DNA of 9,186 nucleotides from Lentzea sp. (GTDB lineage Bacteria > Actinomycetota > Actinomycetes > Mycobacteriales > Pseudonocardiaceae), in NCBI GenBank assembly GCA_030146905.1, contig JASLAV010000271.1:1-9186 (forward strand), read 5' to 3'. This document shows, piece after piece, positions 2,647 through 7,623 of this stretch. Each line of letters starts with the position of its first letter. The stretch's first letter is position 1. The translations under genes were made by a program, and so were the position numbers. The notes beneath the pieces were generated by a model. The model was given only the letters and a program-made list of their open reading frames with translations, was not told where the DNA came from and made no database searches.

Positions 2647-5406
2647 TCAGGCGAGAACTCGGGCCAGGTCCCTGCGACCTGCGATTCCGAGCTTCGTGTA
2701 GATCCGCCCGAGGTGGTTCTCGACGGTCTTGGGCGTCACGAACAGCTCCTGCGCGATCTCCCTGTTCGCCCGCCCGGTCGCCGCGAGGTCCGCCACCCGC
2801 CGCTCGGACGCCGTCAACGCCTCCGCGCCCACCACGACCTGCCTGCGCGGCCGGTCGCCGAGGGCCTCCAACGCCTCGACGGCCCGCGTCCTCAGCACTG
2901 CCGAGCCGCACTGGCCCGCGAGGTCGATCGCCCTGTGCAGCGGTTCCCGCGCGTCCGTGCGGCGTCGTGCCACGCGCAGCGTCTCGCCCAGGTCGACCAG
3001 CGACCGGGCCAGCTCCAGCCGCGACGGCGAGTTCTCCAGCACGGACACCGACTCGCTCATGAGCTGCAGCCGCCTGTCCGGACCGGCGTGCGCGAGCAAC
3101 CGCAGAGCCGAGCCGACCTCGGTCGCCGCGCCCCACCTGCGCGCCACGTCGAGCTGCTCGGTAGCCAGCTCCAGCGCGAGCTCGTGCTGGCCGAGCTGCA
3201 ACGCCCCCCTCGTCGCCGGAGCGCGCCAGGGGATCGTCGGCGGGTCGACGTGCACCTGGTGCATCGCGTCGCGCTGGCGGTAGGCCTCGGACATCGCGCG
3301 CCGTGCGTCGCCTTCCGCCAGCGCGATCAACGCCCGCACCTCGTGCAGCCAGATCATCGGCATGGCCAGCGGGGCGTTCGCGTGGGCGGTGTCGAAGGCG
3401 TTCATGAAGGTCTTCGCCGCCGCGACATCGCCTCGTTCGAGCGCCGCGTAGACCGCGAAGTGCGTCGAGGTCGCCCGCAGGCTGATGACCTCGGACACCG
3501 GGTCCTCGTGCGCGACGGCGGCCAGCGCGCCCTCGGCCTCCGCCTCGACCGCCGGCATGTTCCCGACGCGCCAGTTCAGGAACAGCGACGCGTTGGCGAC
3601 CATCGCGAACTCGATCGGCGAGCCGTGCCGGCGCACTCTCAGCCGTGCGCGGTCGATCTCGTGCCTCGCCGTGTCGACGCCGTCCGCGGCCATCAGCGCG
3701 AGCAACGCCACCAGCCACGCGACCATCGCGTCCGTGCTGCCCGTCGCGTCGTCGAAATAGGCGCCGTTGGCCAACGCCCGTGTCGCGGTCGCGGCCACCT
3801 CGTCGTGCGGCCACACCTCGTAGCGGCCCATCTGCGCGAGGAGACCGAGCAGCGTCCGTTCGTCGGGGGTGCCGCCCGCCAGCCCGGCATAACCGGCGAG
3901 GTGGGCGGAGGCGACCTGCCGCTGGTCGGGCAGGAACGAGCGGAACACCGCGAGCCGTGCCTCCAGGTGCAGCCGCGACTCGCCGTCCGGGCGGGCCGCG
4001 ATGGCCTCGGTCAGCTCCGCGATCGCCGCCGCGGGGCCTTCCAGCGCCGCCGTCGCCGAGGCGGCCGCCGCCACCAGTTCCGCGTCCGGCAGTCCCTGCG
4101 CCGCCGCCTTCAGGTGCCGGTGCGCGTTGACCGCGTCGCCGGTCCGCAGCAGCGCCCGTCCCAGCTCGGCGCGCAGGCCCGCGTCGCCGGGCTTCTCGTC
4201 CACAGCACGTGCCAGGTGAGCCGCGGCGGTTCGAGCGTCACCCGCCGAGAGCAAGGTGGCAGCGGCCTTCCGCAGGACCTCTGCCGCGTCCGGGAGCGTC
4301 CCTTTGGGAGCGTGCACGAGATGGGCCGCGACACGATCGGCCGATGCGTGCGACGCCGACAACGCTTTCGCGGCGCGCGCGTGCAGCGAAGCGCGCGCGA
4401 TCGGTCCGAGACCGGTCAGAACCGCTTCGCGCACAACGGGATGCACGAACTCCAGGTGTTCACCGGTGACGAGCACGTTCGCCGCCGTCAACGCCTCCAC
4501 CGCGGCCGGGAGATCGCCGACCTCCGCCAGTTCCGCCGCCTGCCAGGGATCCGCGTGCGTGCCGAGGACCGCCACCGCACCCGCGAGGGCCACGGCCTGC
4601 GCGGGCAACCGCCCGAGCGTGGCGCGGAAGACGGTGCTCGGCCCCAGCGTGCCGACCTTCTCCGCCGTCGAGGCGTCGTCGAGCGGCAGGCCGAGCACGG
4701 CCAGCTCGTCCACCAGAACGCCGGTGAGGAAGGGGTTTCCGCCGCTGGCCGCGTGCAGTGCGGCGATCACCTCGGGATGTCCGCCGACCAGCCTGCCGAG
4801 CGCCTCGGTGGTGAGCGGGCGCGGCAGCAACCGGTCGGCGGACACGCTGAGCTGCGCGAGCGGCCCTGAGTTGTCCGAAGGTGGCCTGGTCGCGACGACG
4901 AGCGTGATCGGGAGGTCCGCGATCCGCCTCGAGAGGTAGACGAGGAACTGCAGCGACGAGTGGTCCGCCCAGTGCGCGTCGTCCACCGTGATCAGCAGCG
5001 GGCGGGTGGACGAGAGGTCCACCGCGACCCACCACAGCGAGTGCAGCGTGCGGGCCAGTTCGGCCCCGCTCGGGTCGAGCGCGGCGTCGTCGAGTGCCTT
5101 GAGCGCGGCCCCTGACGGCCCGGCCAGGATCTTCTCGCGGATCTCGCCGGAGTACCGCGACACCGACCGCTCGACCATCTGCCGGACGACGCCCCACGCC
5201 ATCGCGCTTTCCAGGGCGTCGCCGACGGCCTGGAGCCTGCCGAACCCGCGCCGCTTGGCCAGCTCGCGGCACTCGTGGACGAGCCTGGTCTTGCCGATGC
5301 CCGCACGGCCCTCGATGACGACGACGCGCCCCTCACCACGGGTGGCGGCGTCGAGAGCTTCACGGATGTGCGCGATCTCGTCGTCTCGTTCAAGTGGTTC
5401 GCGCAC
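2647..5406 (-). CDS. LAL-type LuxR-family transcriptional regulator (ATPase plus HTH)
   Basis: A 919-residue cytoplasmic regulator of the large ATP-binding LuxR (MalT-like STAND) class. An N-terminal AAA/NTPase module has Walker A GRAGIGKT (33-40), Walker B LLITVDDAHWAD (137-148) and a sensor-like VVATRP (170-175). A long alpha-helical TPR-like middle follows, rich in AxxHLxxA patterns. The C-terminus is a complete LuxR helix-turn-helix (about 864-919: LTASERRVADLAATG, NREIAQELFVTPKTVENHL, RIYTKLGIAGRRDL). There is no receiver or acyl-homoserine-lactone domain. Length matches the family (about 870-1100). The GTG start at 5406 leaves the usual short LERDDEIAHI lead-in before Walker A. AGGA ends 7 nt upstream, overlapping a possible -10. 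Such proteins often act as pathway-specific activators. No biosynthetic cluster is visible here, so its targets are unknown; the peptidase gene downstream is one candidate by proximity only. Confidence 0.95.
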   Translation of the reverse strand: MREPLERDDEIAHIREALDAATRGEGRVVVIEGRAGIGKTRLVHECRELAKRRGFGRLQAVGDALESAMAWGVVRQMVERSVSRYSGEIREKILAGPSGAALKALDDAALDPSGAELARTLHSLWWVAVDLSSTRPLLITVDDAHWADHSSLQFLVYLSRRIADLPITLVVATRPPSDNSGPLAQLSVSADRLLPRPLTTEALGRLVGGHPEVIAALHAASGGNPFLTGVLVDELAVLGLPLDDASTAEKVGTLGPSTVFRATLGRLPAQAVALAGAVAVLGTHADPWQAAELAEVGDLPAAVEALTAANVLVTGEHLEFVHPVVREAVLTGLGPIARASLHARAAKALSASHASADRVAAHLVHAPKGTLPDAAEVLRKAAATLLSAGDARTAAAHLARAVDEKPGDAGLRAELGRALLRTGDAVNAHRHLKAAAQGLPDAELVAAAASATAALEGPAAAIAELTEAIAARPDGESRLHLEARLAVFRSFLPDQRQVASAHLAGYAGLAGGTPDERTLLGLLAQMGRYEVWPHDEVAATATRALANGAYFDDATGSTDAMVAWLVALLALMAADGVDTARHEIDRARLRVRRHGSPIEFAMVANASLFLNWRVGNMPAVEAEAEGALAAVAHEDPVSEVISLRATSTHFAVYAALERGDVAAAKTFMNAFDTAHANAPLAMPMIWLHEVRALIALAEGDARRAMSEAYRQRDAMHQVHVDPPTIPWRAPATRGALQLGQHELALELATEQLDVARRWGAATEVGSALRLLAHAGPDRRLQLMSESVSVLENSPSRLELARSLVDLGETLRVARRRTDAREPLHRAIDLAGQCGSAVLRTRAVEALEALGDRPRRQVVVGAEALTASERRVADLAATGRANREIAQELFVTPKTVENHLGRIYTKLGIAGRRDLARVLA

Positions 5407-5412
5407 TGATCG

Positions 5413-5418
5413 ATCCTA
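5413..5418 (-). promoter_or_regulatory. TAGGAT: candidate -10 and/or Shine-Dalgarno of the LAL gene
   Basis: On the minus strand TAGGAT lies exactly 6 nt before the GTG at 5406. It fits TANNNT with the transcript beginning at the start codon (leaderless). The same bases hold AGGA at 7-nt spacing, a usable ribosome site. The two readings are mutually exclusive, and I cannot choose. The hexamer directly borders the long palindrome, so any -35 would lie inside that element; no good TTGACA-like match was seen there. Confidence 0.35.
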
Positions 5419-5579
5419 GGGCGTGTCCCGTGGGTCTGTTCGATGAGAGTCACGGTCGAGCGTCCCGGAGGCGGTGCCGCCGCGACGTCCTCATACCGGG
5501 CGTATTCGGGTGTTGCGGCGGTGCCGTCTCCGGGGCCCTCGGCCGCGACTATCGCGGACGAGACTCACGGGACACGCCC
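5419..5579. repeat. 161-bp full-length palindrome (MITE-like or structured-RNA element)
   Basis: The ends are a 19-bp inverted repeat, GGGCGTGTCCCGTGGGTCT at 5419-5437 and its complement at 5561-5579, with 18 of 19 matching. The symmetry does not stop there. Pairing base i with base 10998-i runs without any gap to the centre, leaving a 5-nt loop CGGGC at 5497-5501. Of 78 positions, 59 are Watson-Crick, 10 are G.T on the + strand and 9 are mismatches (mainly in 5438-5461). No convincing coding sequence and no clear target-site duplication were found; the flanks are CCTA on the left and CAGC on the right. The sharp terminal repeats suggest a non-autonomous transposable element with insertion-sequence-like ends. 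A conserved hairpin RNA is the alternative. It lies between the LCP stop and the LAL start. Confidence 0.8.
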
Positions 5580-5655
5580 CAGCGGCCGTCCAGCCGGCTA
5601 CGTGCTGGTCATCGACGGTGCGTCCGGGCGACTTGATGCTCCAGTGGTGTGAAGG
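5580..5655. other. Remainder of LCP-LAL intergenic gap
   Basis: Seventy-six bases between the palindrome and the LCP stop codon. Only a weak inverted repeat is visible, CCAGC (5590-5594) against GCTGG (5604-5608), which may help terminate the sigma-LCP transcript. No gene or clear promoter seen. Confidence 0.3.
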
Positions 5656-6573
5656 TCAGCGCAGGCACTCGTCCGGCGAACCCGGCTTGCCGCCGAACTG
5701 GTCCGCGACGAACTTCTTCGCTTGGCCCACGTCGACAGGCAGGCCCTGACCGCCCCTGGAGTCGACGGGGTCGCCGACCGGCAGCGTCGCCGCGGAGATC
5801 TCGACGGACCCCTGGAACCGCTGGGCGAACGCGAGCACGTCCCAGCCCTCGTCGACGCGGATGGACTTCCCGACCTCACCGGCGAGGGCTGGGGCGTGCT
5901 CGCTGATCTTGGGCGCGAGCCCGACCAGGAACGCCTGGTGCCGCCTGGTCCTGTCGAGGTCGCCCATGGCCAGGCCCATGCGCTGGCGGAGGAACGCGAG
6001 CGCCCGGTCACCGTCGACCGTCTGCCGGCCCGCGGGGAACGAGACACCGGTCTGGTCGTCCCTGGTCGCGGTGAGCAGGCAGACCTCGACACCTCCGACG
6101 ACCTTGGCGATCCGGCCGAACTCGCTCATCCTGACCGCGGCGTAGTGGTCGACCTCCACCCCGGTCAGCTGCTCGACCGCGGCCGTCAGCTTCGCCGGGT
6201 CCTGCCGGTACAGCGAATTGATCTTCACGTCACCGACCAGGACGTCGCGCGGCACCGACACCGCGCTGACGGACCCCTCACCCGCGAAGCGCGCGAGCAC
6301 GAGCGCGTCGGTGTAGTCGTTGTCGTCGGTACCGATGAGCAGGACGTTCTGGGCCGTGGCCGATGGCTGCACCGCGGGGGTCGTGTCGACCTTCTTGAAC
6401 GTCGCCGGGATGATGGCGGCCGCGGCGGCAGCGGCCACCGTCAACGTCGCCACTCCGACGATCATCCTGAACGGCTTGCGCTTCTTGTGCTTGTGCAACC
6501 CGGCCAGCACGGTCCGCGGGTCGACGCGCTCCTCGGCCTCTGCGGCGACGGCTTGGCGGATGAGGTCGTTCAC
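5656..6573 (-). CDS. LytR-CpsA-Psr (LCP) family membrane protein with anti-sigma-like N-terminus
   Basis: A 305-residue type II membrane protein. Residues 1-36 are cytoplasmic and charged (MNDLIRQAVAAEAEERVDPR, then HKHKKRK). Residues 37-59 are the single membrane segment, and an extracytoplasmic LCP domain spans about 75-223. LCP motifs seen: NVLLIGTDD (76-84), SVPRD (106-110), KINSLY (117-122) and DLDRTRRHQAF (205-215). The family transfers polyprenyl-linked glycopolymers, such as teichoic acid or arabinogalactan, to peptidoglycan. The conserved Arg before the TD of strand 2 is replaced (DNDYTDALV), so activity may be altered. Cys165 and Cys303 could pair. The GTG start has GGAGGT 6 nt upstream and overlaps the sigma stop (GTGA), implying translational coupling. 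Its N-terminal tail resembles the short sigma-binding tails of actinobacterial anti-sigma factors, so it may restrain the sigma factor (inference). At 305 residues it is shorter than many LCP proteins and lacks the extra C-terminal LytR_C domain. Confidence 0.88.
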   Translation of the reverse strand: MNDLIRQAVAAEAEERVDPRTVLAGLHKHKKRKPFRMIVGVATLTVAAAAAAAIIPATFKKVDTTPAVQPSATAQNVLLIGTDDNDYTDALVLARFAGEGSVSAVSVPRDVLVGDVKINSLYRQDPAKLTAAVEQLTGVEVDHYAAVRMSEFGRIAKVVGGVEVCLLTATRDDQTGVSFPAGRQTVDGDRALAFLRQRMGLAMGDLDRTRRHQAFLVGLAPKISEHAPALAGEVGKSIRVDEGWDVLAFAQRFQGSVEISAATLPVGDPVDSRGGQGLPVDVGQAKKFVADQFGGKPGSPDECLR

Positions 6574-7194: not shown

Positions 7195-7623
7195 TCAGCC
7201 CGGCCGCCTGCTCAGCACGACCTCGTACACGCGGGCGGCCGCGGCGGCGACCGTCTCGTGCTCCCACACCCGCACGGCGAGCCAGCCGGCATCGGCGAGC
7301 TTCCGGTCCGTGTCGAGGTCGCGCCGGCGGTTGGTTTCGATCTTCGTCCGCCAGAACTCGGCGTTGTTCTTGGGCCACGTCGCGTGCTCGGGGCAGCCGT
7401 GCCAGAAACAACCGTCGACGAACACCGCGACCTTGGCCGAGGTGAAGACGATGTCCGCCTCTCGGCGAACGCCCTCCACCGGCCTGCGGTGCACCCTGTA
7501 GCGCAGGCCTGCGGCGAACAGGGCCCTGCGCAGGTCGACCTCGATCTGCGTGTTCCGAGTCTTCTGCTTGCTCATGCGGGCCCGCACGCTCGGCGCTGTC
7601 TCGAGGGGTTCCACGCCGGGCAT
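7195..7623 (-). CDS. vsr: Vsr-type very short patch repair endonuclease
   Basis: A 142-residue mismatch endonuclease homologue. In Escherichia coli, Vsr nicks beside T:G mismatches left by deamination of 5-methylcytosine. The order of motifs is complete: MSKQKTRNTQIEVDLRRAL (17-35, with Glu28), GLRYRVHRR (39-47), EADIVF (55-60, with Asp57 at the catalytic position), AVFVDGCFWHGCPEH (66-80, with Cys72, His75, Cys77, His80 for catalysis and zinc) and AGWLAVRVWEHE (112-123, His122 where E. coli has a zinc Cys). Length is normal. The E. coli Thr-His before GC is Val-Asp, as in many bacterial homologues. The ATG at 7623 lies 17 bp past the methyltransferase stop with a weak GGGA ribosome site, so the two are probably co-transcribed. 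No dcm-like cytosine-5 methyltransferase is in the window; Vsr normally partners one. GTG at 7587 is a possible shorter start. Confidence 0.92.
   Translation of the reverse strand: MPGVEPLETAPSVRARMSKQKTRNTQIEVDLRRALFAAGLRYRVHRRPVEGVRREADIVFTSAKVAVFVDGCFWHGCPEHATWPKNNAEFWRTKIETNRRRDLDTDRKLADAGWLAVRVWEHETVAAAAARVYEVVLSRRPG

Follow-up and report, generated by a model that had tools for sequence, protein, structure and literature searches.

A palindromic TA-type miniature element of Lentzea and other actinomycetes with hairpin pairing selected on one strand

Why should a short sequence between two Lentzea genes be palindromic over its whole length, and is it a miniature mobile element, a structured nucleic acid maintained by selection, or both? 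The question is raised by positions 5419-5579 of the window (the whole 9,186-nt stretch of DNA analysed in this study), where a 161-bp palindrome lies between the start of a LuxR-type regulator gene and the end of a LytR-CpsA-Psr (LCP) gene (Table 1). The sections below consider the fold of this sequence, its copies and their target sites, the changes that have accumulated in its stem, and its relation to known elements.

The palindrome and its locus

Recomputation of the pairing gave the same counts as the earlier note, which had described a 161-bp palindrome pairing ungapped over 78 positions around a 5-nt loop. The 78 pairs consist of 59 Watson-Crick pairs, 10 G.T pairs and 9 mismatches (two of them A.C), with 18 Watson-Crick pairs and one G.T pair among the outer 19, and a repeat search recovered the same arms, extending to 5416-5582. 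Folded as RNA, the plus strand reached -135.5 kcal/mol (z -13.6, with 0 of 200 shuffles as good), compared to -109.6 kcal/mol (z -9.3) for the minus strand, while DNA parameters gave -67.0 (z -9.5) for the plus strand and -57.3 (z -6.5) for the minus strand. Folding against shuffled sequence, which the earlier note had proposed as a check, thus came out far in favour of the palindrome. Because of these z-scores on both strands and with both parameter sets, the palindrome is beyond chance and is not strand-symmetric, with its wobble pairs on the plus strand; a chance palindrome is ruled out by the comparison with shuffles and by the stem covariation presented below. No Rfam match on the palindrome was found in the window at E ≤ 1, and eight further hairpin loci gave three matches only, all far below the gathering score and all to microRNA hairpins; no known Rfam RNA fits among the window and eight loci searched. 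Judged by its length and by the list of open reading frames, the 161-bp element contains no transposase.

A search with the LCP protein identified Lentzea xinjiangensis as one relative (71% protein identity), and the DNA flanking the palindrome is 85-88% identical to this species on both sides, in keeping with the Pseudonocardiales host assumed earlier. The L. xinjiangensis ortholog of the locus is without the element: it reads GATCG-TA-GCGGCC where the window reads GATCC-TA-(161 bp)-CA-GCGGCC, the left flank differing slightly. This alignment of the empty locus, another check that had been proposed, shows a single TA in the relative and rules out that the hairpin is a regulatory feature belonging to the LuxR or LCP gene. 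Elsewhere in the window, a 24-bp inverted repeat (92% complementary, 5831-5854 with 5880-5903) lies inside the LCP coding region, and the minus strand at 7195-7575 encodes a Vsr mismatch endonuclease (TIGR00632).

Table 1. Coordinates of the palindromic element and its neighbouring genes in the window
Feature	Position	Strand	Basis or remark
Left TA of the target duplication (forms CTAG together with the first G of the element)	5417..5418		TA on both sides in 47/70 copies; single TA at the empty site in L001
Left terminal inverted repeat, 19 bp, 18/19 Watson-Crick with the right one	5419..5437	+	
Left hairpin arm, 78 nt	5419..5496	+	Fold; family alignment A1
Conserved tip: CC, TC/TC internal loop (5491-5492 vs 5506-5507), ATAC/GTAT stem (5493-5496, 5502-5505), GGG	5489..5510	+	
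Loop, 5 nt, CGGGC	5497..5501	+	Fold
Right hairpin arm, 78 nt	5502..5579	+	Fold; covariation
Right terminal inverted repeat, 19 bp	5561..5579	-	
CA, right target-duplication copy, decayed from TA	5580..5581		Most other copies, and the empty site of L001, have TA
AAA ATPase / LuxR-type regulator	2647..5406	-	Pfam AAA_16 and GerE; start 12 nt from the element
LytR-CpsA-Psr (LCP) family protein	5656..6573	-	Pfam PF03816; stop 76 nt from the element

Copies, target sites and insertion-sequence partners

The search for further copies, also proposed in the earlier note, was positive. L. xinjiangensis contains three full copies elsewhere in its genome (90-95% identity), 21 of 24 Lentzea genomes have matches to the element (E ≤ 1e-6), and family-wide at least 34 of 297 genomes have them (E ≤ 1e-8), a lower bound as two candidates were scored per genome. 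A script set the ends of 119 candidate places, using in part how well the outer 12 bp complement each other. Seventy-six distinct elements passed the score and length cut, and 70 of these, nine from outside Lentzea, entered alignment A1; the six excluded were two shorter elements (L154, L177), two from Streptomyces and two IS630-neighbour forms. TA stands on both sides of 47 of the 70 copies, and 34 are flanked as CTA..TAG.

Joined flanks of eight insertion sites were searched against the genus, a procedure biased towards contiguous matches and hence towards empty sites. Of the 30 loci fetched, 27, at four sites, run straight through a single TA (6/6 at the L006 site, 12/14 at L040, 7/8 at L133 and 2/2 at L150), and the other three have extra sequence or gaps. 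Six further places were read; in five the two flank halves were separated, and in one there was a long gap. A different hairpin occupies exactly the same CTAG, or TTAG/CTAA, at three places: L333 in genome G024 (the L150 site), L334 in G009 (the L133 site) and L336 in G007 (the L006 site), which fold at -158.0, -126.0 and -81.4 on the printed strand compared to -112.3, -84.4 and -57.6 on the complement. The same insertion site is therefore used by different family members in different species. L335 and L337 hold other sequence. At the L133 site of G019, L300 shows 11 extra bases in an otherwise empty site, possibly an excision footprint.

The palindrome is thus a member of a family of non-autonomous palindromic MITEs, which insert at TA, mostly within CTAG, and duplicate the TA. 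The element is short, multicopy and dispersed, with a whole-length stem-loop, empty sites and no transposase of its own, and the hairpin-type miniature element that had been suggested from the single copy is borne out by the copy number, the TA duplication and the precise empty sites. Several derived forms were also observed. Palindromes of 56-94 bp with intact ends (L056, L061, L062, L063 and L064, in G006, G012 and G008) have lost the middle of the hairpin by deletion, and some of them retain TA or CTAG on both flanks. L051-L054 in G006 are half elements, in which a single end and its arm can be followed to about the tip (94-97% identity) before unrelated DNA begins. In G009, close to or at the ends of contigs, the same outer sequence (..AAACTCAAGC) stands directly against the TA of L057, L058, L059 and L136, which looks as though another repeated element lands at hairpin borders.

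The earlier note had remarked that the terminal repeats look like insertion-sequence ends, and elements with similar ends were found: Lentzea contains IS5-family elements of about 0.93-0.95 kb with TA flanks, whose ends read GTGCGTGTCCTGTAAGTC / GAGCCTGTCCTGTAAGCC in L188 (G024), GGGCGTGTCCGCCGGAAC in L189 and GGGCCTGTCCTCAAAGCT in L216. L188 has two overlapping frames with DUF4096 and DDE domains, both matching NF033580 (IS5 family transposase). Hairpins in the same genome, G024, start AGCCGTGTCCTGTAAGTC or GGCCGTGTCCTGTAGGTC, and the L333 hairpin starts GGGCCTGTATCGAGGTCT, which is 16/18 like the IS end GGGCCTGTATCGAAGTCG in L240; in both cases the terminal repeats resemble those of a resident IS and the target is the same. 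The hairpins and these IS5-family elements (NF033580; L188, L189, L216) thus share TA flanks, similar terminal repeats and genus, but the hairpin is without a transposase gene and its interior is unlike the scanned IS loci, where hairpin core segments matched at three IS630-neighbour loci only. Given the similarity of ends and target, IS5-family transposases of the DUF4096 and DDE type, a subgroup that we take to be IS427-like, may recognise the terminal repeats and would move the hairpin in trans.

IS630-type elements were rejected as the source: although several abut hairpins, their ends (GTAGCGTGTCGC, GTGTCCTGCGCC) fit worse than IS5-family ends, and those adjoining hairpins are read as insertions beside them. 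At L070, L071 and L180-L187 (G012 and G002; nine of the ten loci were read, all but L187), an IS630-type element adjoins hairpins of a divergent subfamily and shares the CTAG. Some of these hairpins are truncated, and at L071 one hairpin lies between two IS copies; at L193 (G023), another IS630-type end abuts a hairpin. This pattern suggests that hairpin borders attract IS630-type insertion sequences.

Covariation and one-strand selection

Across the 70 copies of A1, 85.9% of cells are paired and 53 of the 78 pairs have changed on both sides (10 of the 53 in the outer 12 bp used for setting ends, 43 inside). Double-change cells number 448, compared to 110.8 ± 11.7 after shuffling and at most 110 with slid partners, so the compensatory changes that the earlier note had listed among its tests are present. 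The mismatches of the tip are kept, with pair 73 being T.C in 69 copies and pair 74 C.T in 66; pair 58 is G.T in 61 copies, and pairs 19-35 show poor pairing with many A.C cells. G.T exceeds A.C in 63 of the 70 copies (the reverse holds in three), and the plus strand folds better in 68 of the 70 Lentzea-type copies.

Changes were counted on the branches of a FastTree tree with parsimony states. Among Watson-Crick pairs of the helix set, which was chosen, with weak pairs set apart, after the pair table had been seen, internal branches carry 25 C>T, 11 A>G, 0 G>A and 0 T>C changes (36 to G.T and 0 to A.C), and terminal branches carry 48, 31, 13 and 5, respectively, again favouring G.T (79 to 18). 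Trees from the left arm only or the right arm only gave the same outcome. G>A and T>C changes that restore Watson-Crick pairs from G.T were found 18 times on internal and 33 times on terminal branches, and transversions that break Watson-Crick pairs 6 and 34 times. In the weak and loop columns, the two transition classes are balanced, 59 to 54. Counted instead as pair types over all 78 pairs, those seen at least twice comprise 41 G.T to 8 A.C and those seen once 23 to 17; within the helix set, the corresponding figures are 35 to 2 and 15 to 13. A clean neutrality of single copies, as read from this last count, was dropped on account of the bias of the tree count on terminal branches too. Since G.T is preferred on terminal branches as well, inserted copies do not seem to be purely neutral, and the contrast between internal and terminal branches is a tendency with no clean split.

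These counts indicate that pairing is selected on one strand, in a pattern that is neither mutational nor strand-symmetric; it is the pattern expected from selection on plus-strand pairing with wobble tolerated. Covariation with one-strand wobble, a mark of a structured RNA, is present, in agreement with the earlier proposal of a structured RNA or DNA maintained by selection. No change giving A.C falls on an internal branch, which suggests that selection acts on lineages as they continue to spread, not on the value of each copy to its host.

The explanation that we consider likely is a palindromic TA-type MITE that carries a selected hairpin, with the plus strand selected most likely as RNA and IS5-family transposases as the movers. 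The predominance of G.T over both A.C and transversion mismatches favours RNA as what is selected. The plus strand would be transcribed and act in single-stranded form, most likely folded as an RNA hairpin that is about 160 nt long and bears the conserved tip. Spreading lineages would keep its pairing with G.U tolerated, and changes giving A.C are seen on terminal branches only. As a speculation, G.U pairs could let the RNA stay paired while the DNA cruciform is weakened.

There are several potential alternatives. The selected form in the same mobile element could be a plus-strand single-stranded DNA hairpin, arising in replication or transposition and recognised at its tip. The conserved mismatched tip recalls single-stranded DNA hairpins read by other transposases, and DNA folding also favours the plus strand (-67.0 vs -57.3); however, the 36 G.T-producing transitions against 6 Watson-Crick-breaking transversions on internal branches suit RNA wobble better, and a duplicated TA with terminal repeats is in keeping with double-stranded DNA as the substrate of DDE transposition, which makes this form unlikely. 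It would be still more surprising if the element were one in which the ends alone matter, its palindrome and one-strand G.T excess being products of mutation (for example, deamination of an exposed plus strand) or of arm-to-arm copying. C>T and A>G on one strand are expected from deamination of exposed DNA, and arm-to-arm correction of palindromes is known, but the balanced weak and loop columns rule out deamination as the cause of the excess, 51 G>A and T>C changes convert G.T back into Watson-Crick pairs, and arm copying would yield Watson-Crick pairs and not lasting G.T such as pair 58. The least probable explanation is that copies are kept by the host as transcription terminators or mRNA 3'-end stabilisers for neighbouring genes: 26 of the 60 scored copies (10 of the 70 were unscored) lie between convergent genes compared to 8 between divergent ones, and in 46 of the 70 the TA and first G, or the mirror image, complete a neighbouring gene's TAG stop codon (in 12, this is so at both ends), but tandem copies are equally frequent in the two orientations (13 and 13, with no signal of copy orientation relative to neighbouring genes among the 60), the sites are empty in most fetched relatives, a scan of 5300-5750 that covers few actinomycete promoters found no sigma-70-type promoter or terminator-like site, and the CTAG target alone can explain the stop codons. 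In the favoured explanation, many copies lie exactly at gene ends because the CTAG target often overlaps a TAG stop codon.

The wider family and known systems

A whole-element search of plasmids gave partial matches only, which led to the Streptomyces copies. Streptomyces plasmids contain hairpins of 159-160 bp with the same tip and with ends GGGCTGTCCCGT, several of them in CTAA..TTAG, which is TA plus one more element base. The tip and both ends are present in 10 of 15 fetched Streptomyces loci, and the plus strand, oriented by the tip, folds better in 10/10. A tip in common with these plasmid copies fits the earlier argument against a very recent inverted duplication. With a covariance model of the tip (R1), at least 13 of the 394 genomes searched in the class gave matches at E ≤ 1e-4, a lower bound given strict filters and 12 candidates scored per genome. 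Thirty loci were returned, of which 19 were folded and 14 measured; L246 and L250 had no hairpin of this kind at the place searched. The 14 measured class-wide elements are 163-177 bp long, with TA on both sides in six; their tip is CC-TC-GTAC-nnnnn-GTAC-TC-GGG or nearly so, their inner stem is a different one and their ends vary. In arm alignments scored without wobble, the ratio of G.T to A.C is 515:107 in the 70 copies of A1, 90:25 in the 10 Streptomyces elements and 135:8 in the 14 class-wide elements. The tip and the strand bias persist while the ends change.

Among 12 hairpin ends from outside Lentzea searched against 30 IS loci, those of L244 (2/20 mismatches), L258 (3) and L265 (3) matched, each in a genome other than its own, and the match at L303 is to only a candidate IS end. 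These matches hint faintly that terminal repeats may be exchanged outside Lentzea. A more tentative proposal is that what persists is a gene for a structured RNA, a long hairpin whose tip is conserved, and that it has spread across Actinomycetes while its terminal repeats were exchanged, so that it is carried by different IS5-family transposases. The spread of the element would need the RNA, which might, for example, act on the transposase, on its mRNA or on the target. If true, this would make the element a mobile non-coding RNA instead of two IS ends joined by a spacer.

Enterobacteria, neisseriae and pneumococci are known to carry palindromic MITEs, and REPINs are likewise palindromic and mobile, forming hairpins with fixed mismatches. 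The actinomycete hairpin resembles REPs and REPINs (the RAYT system) in being palindromic and mobile with fixed mismatches, but it is 161 bp long with a TA duplication and DDE-type ends. It is not built of tagged units of 20-40 bp, the length outlined for REPs, mostly tagged GTAG or CGTC, in PMC3733652. ERIC (or IRU), RUP and Correia/NEMIS elements are outlined in PMC2229807 as about 100-200 bp long with TA termini, a whole-length stem-loop and many dispersed copies. In these general features (PMC2229807) the actinomycete hairpin is alike, being also short, TA-flanked and dispersed with a long stem-loop, but it differs in hosts and sequence, in its 161-bp length and in its 19-bp end repeats. 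In addition, the partner of RUP belongs to the IS630 family, while the partner of the actinomycete hairpin is likely of the IS5 family. One ERIC copy, when folded, gave -52.3 kcal/mol on the plus strand and -38.2 kcal/mol on the minus strand; one-strand selection is shown for the actinomycete hairpin, while ERIC is represented here by the fold of that one copy.

The main text of a 2024 review of prokaryotic MITEs contains no occurrence of Actinobacteria, Streptomyces or actinomycet- (PMC10969869), and no actinomycete MITE like this hairpin was found in searches of open-access literature. The hairpin family is of the ERIC/RUP/Correia kind, and what is new is its actinomycete host group, for which none was found described, and the evidence of one-strand selection. 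Why palindromic MITEs stay palindromic over their whole length can be answered here by counting copies: in spreading lineages, selection maintains pairing on one of the two strands. For the annotation of actinomycete genomes, this adds a repeat that sits at gene ends, beside which insertion sequences land, and which can be confused with a terminator or a small RNA gene. For the element itself, selection on one strand points to an RNA (or single-stranded DNA) step in a kind of element thought to need its ends alone.
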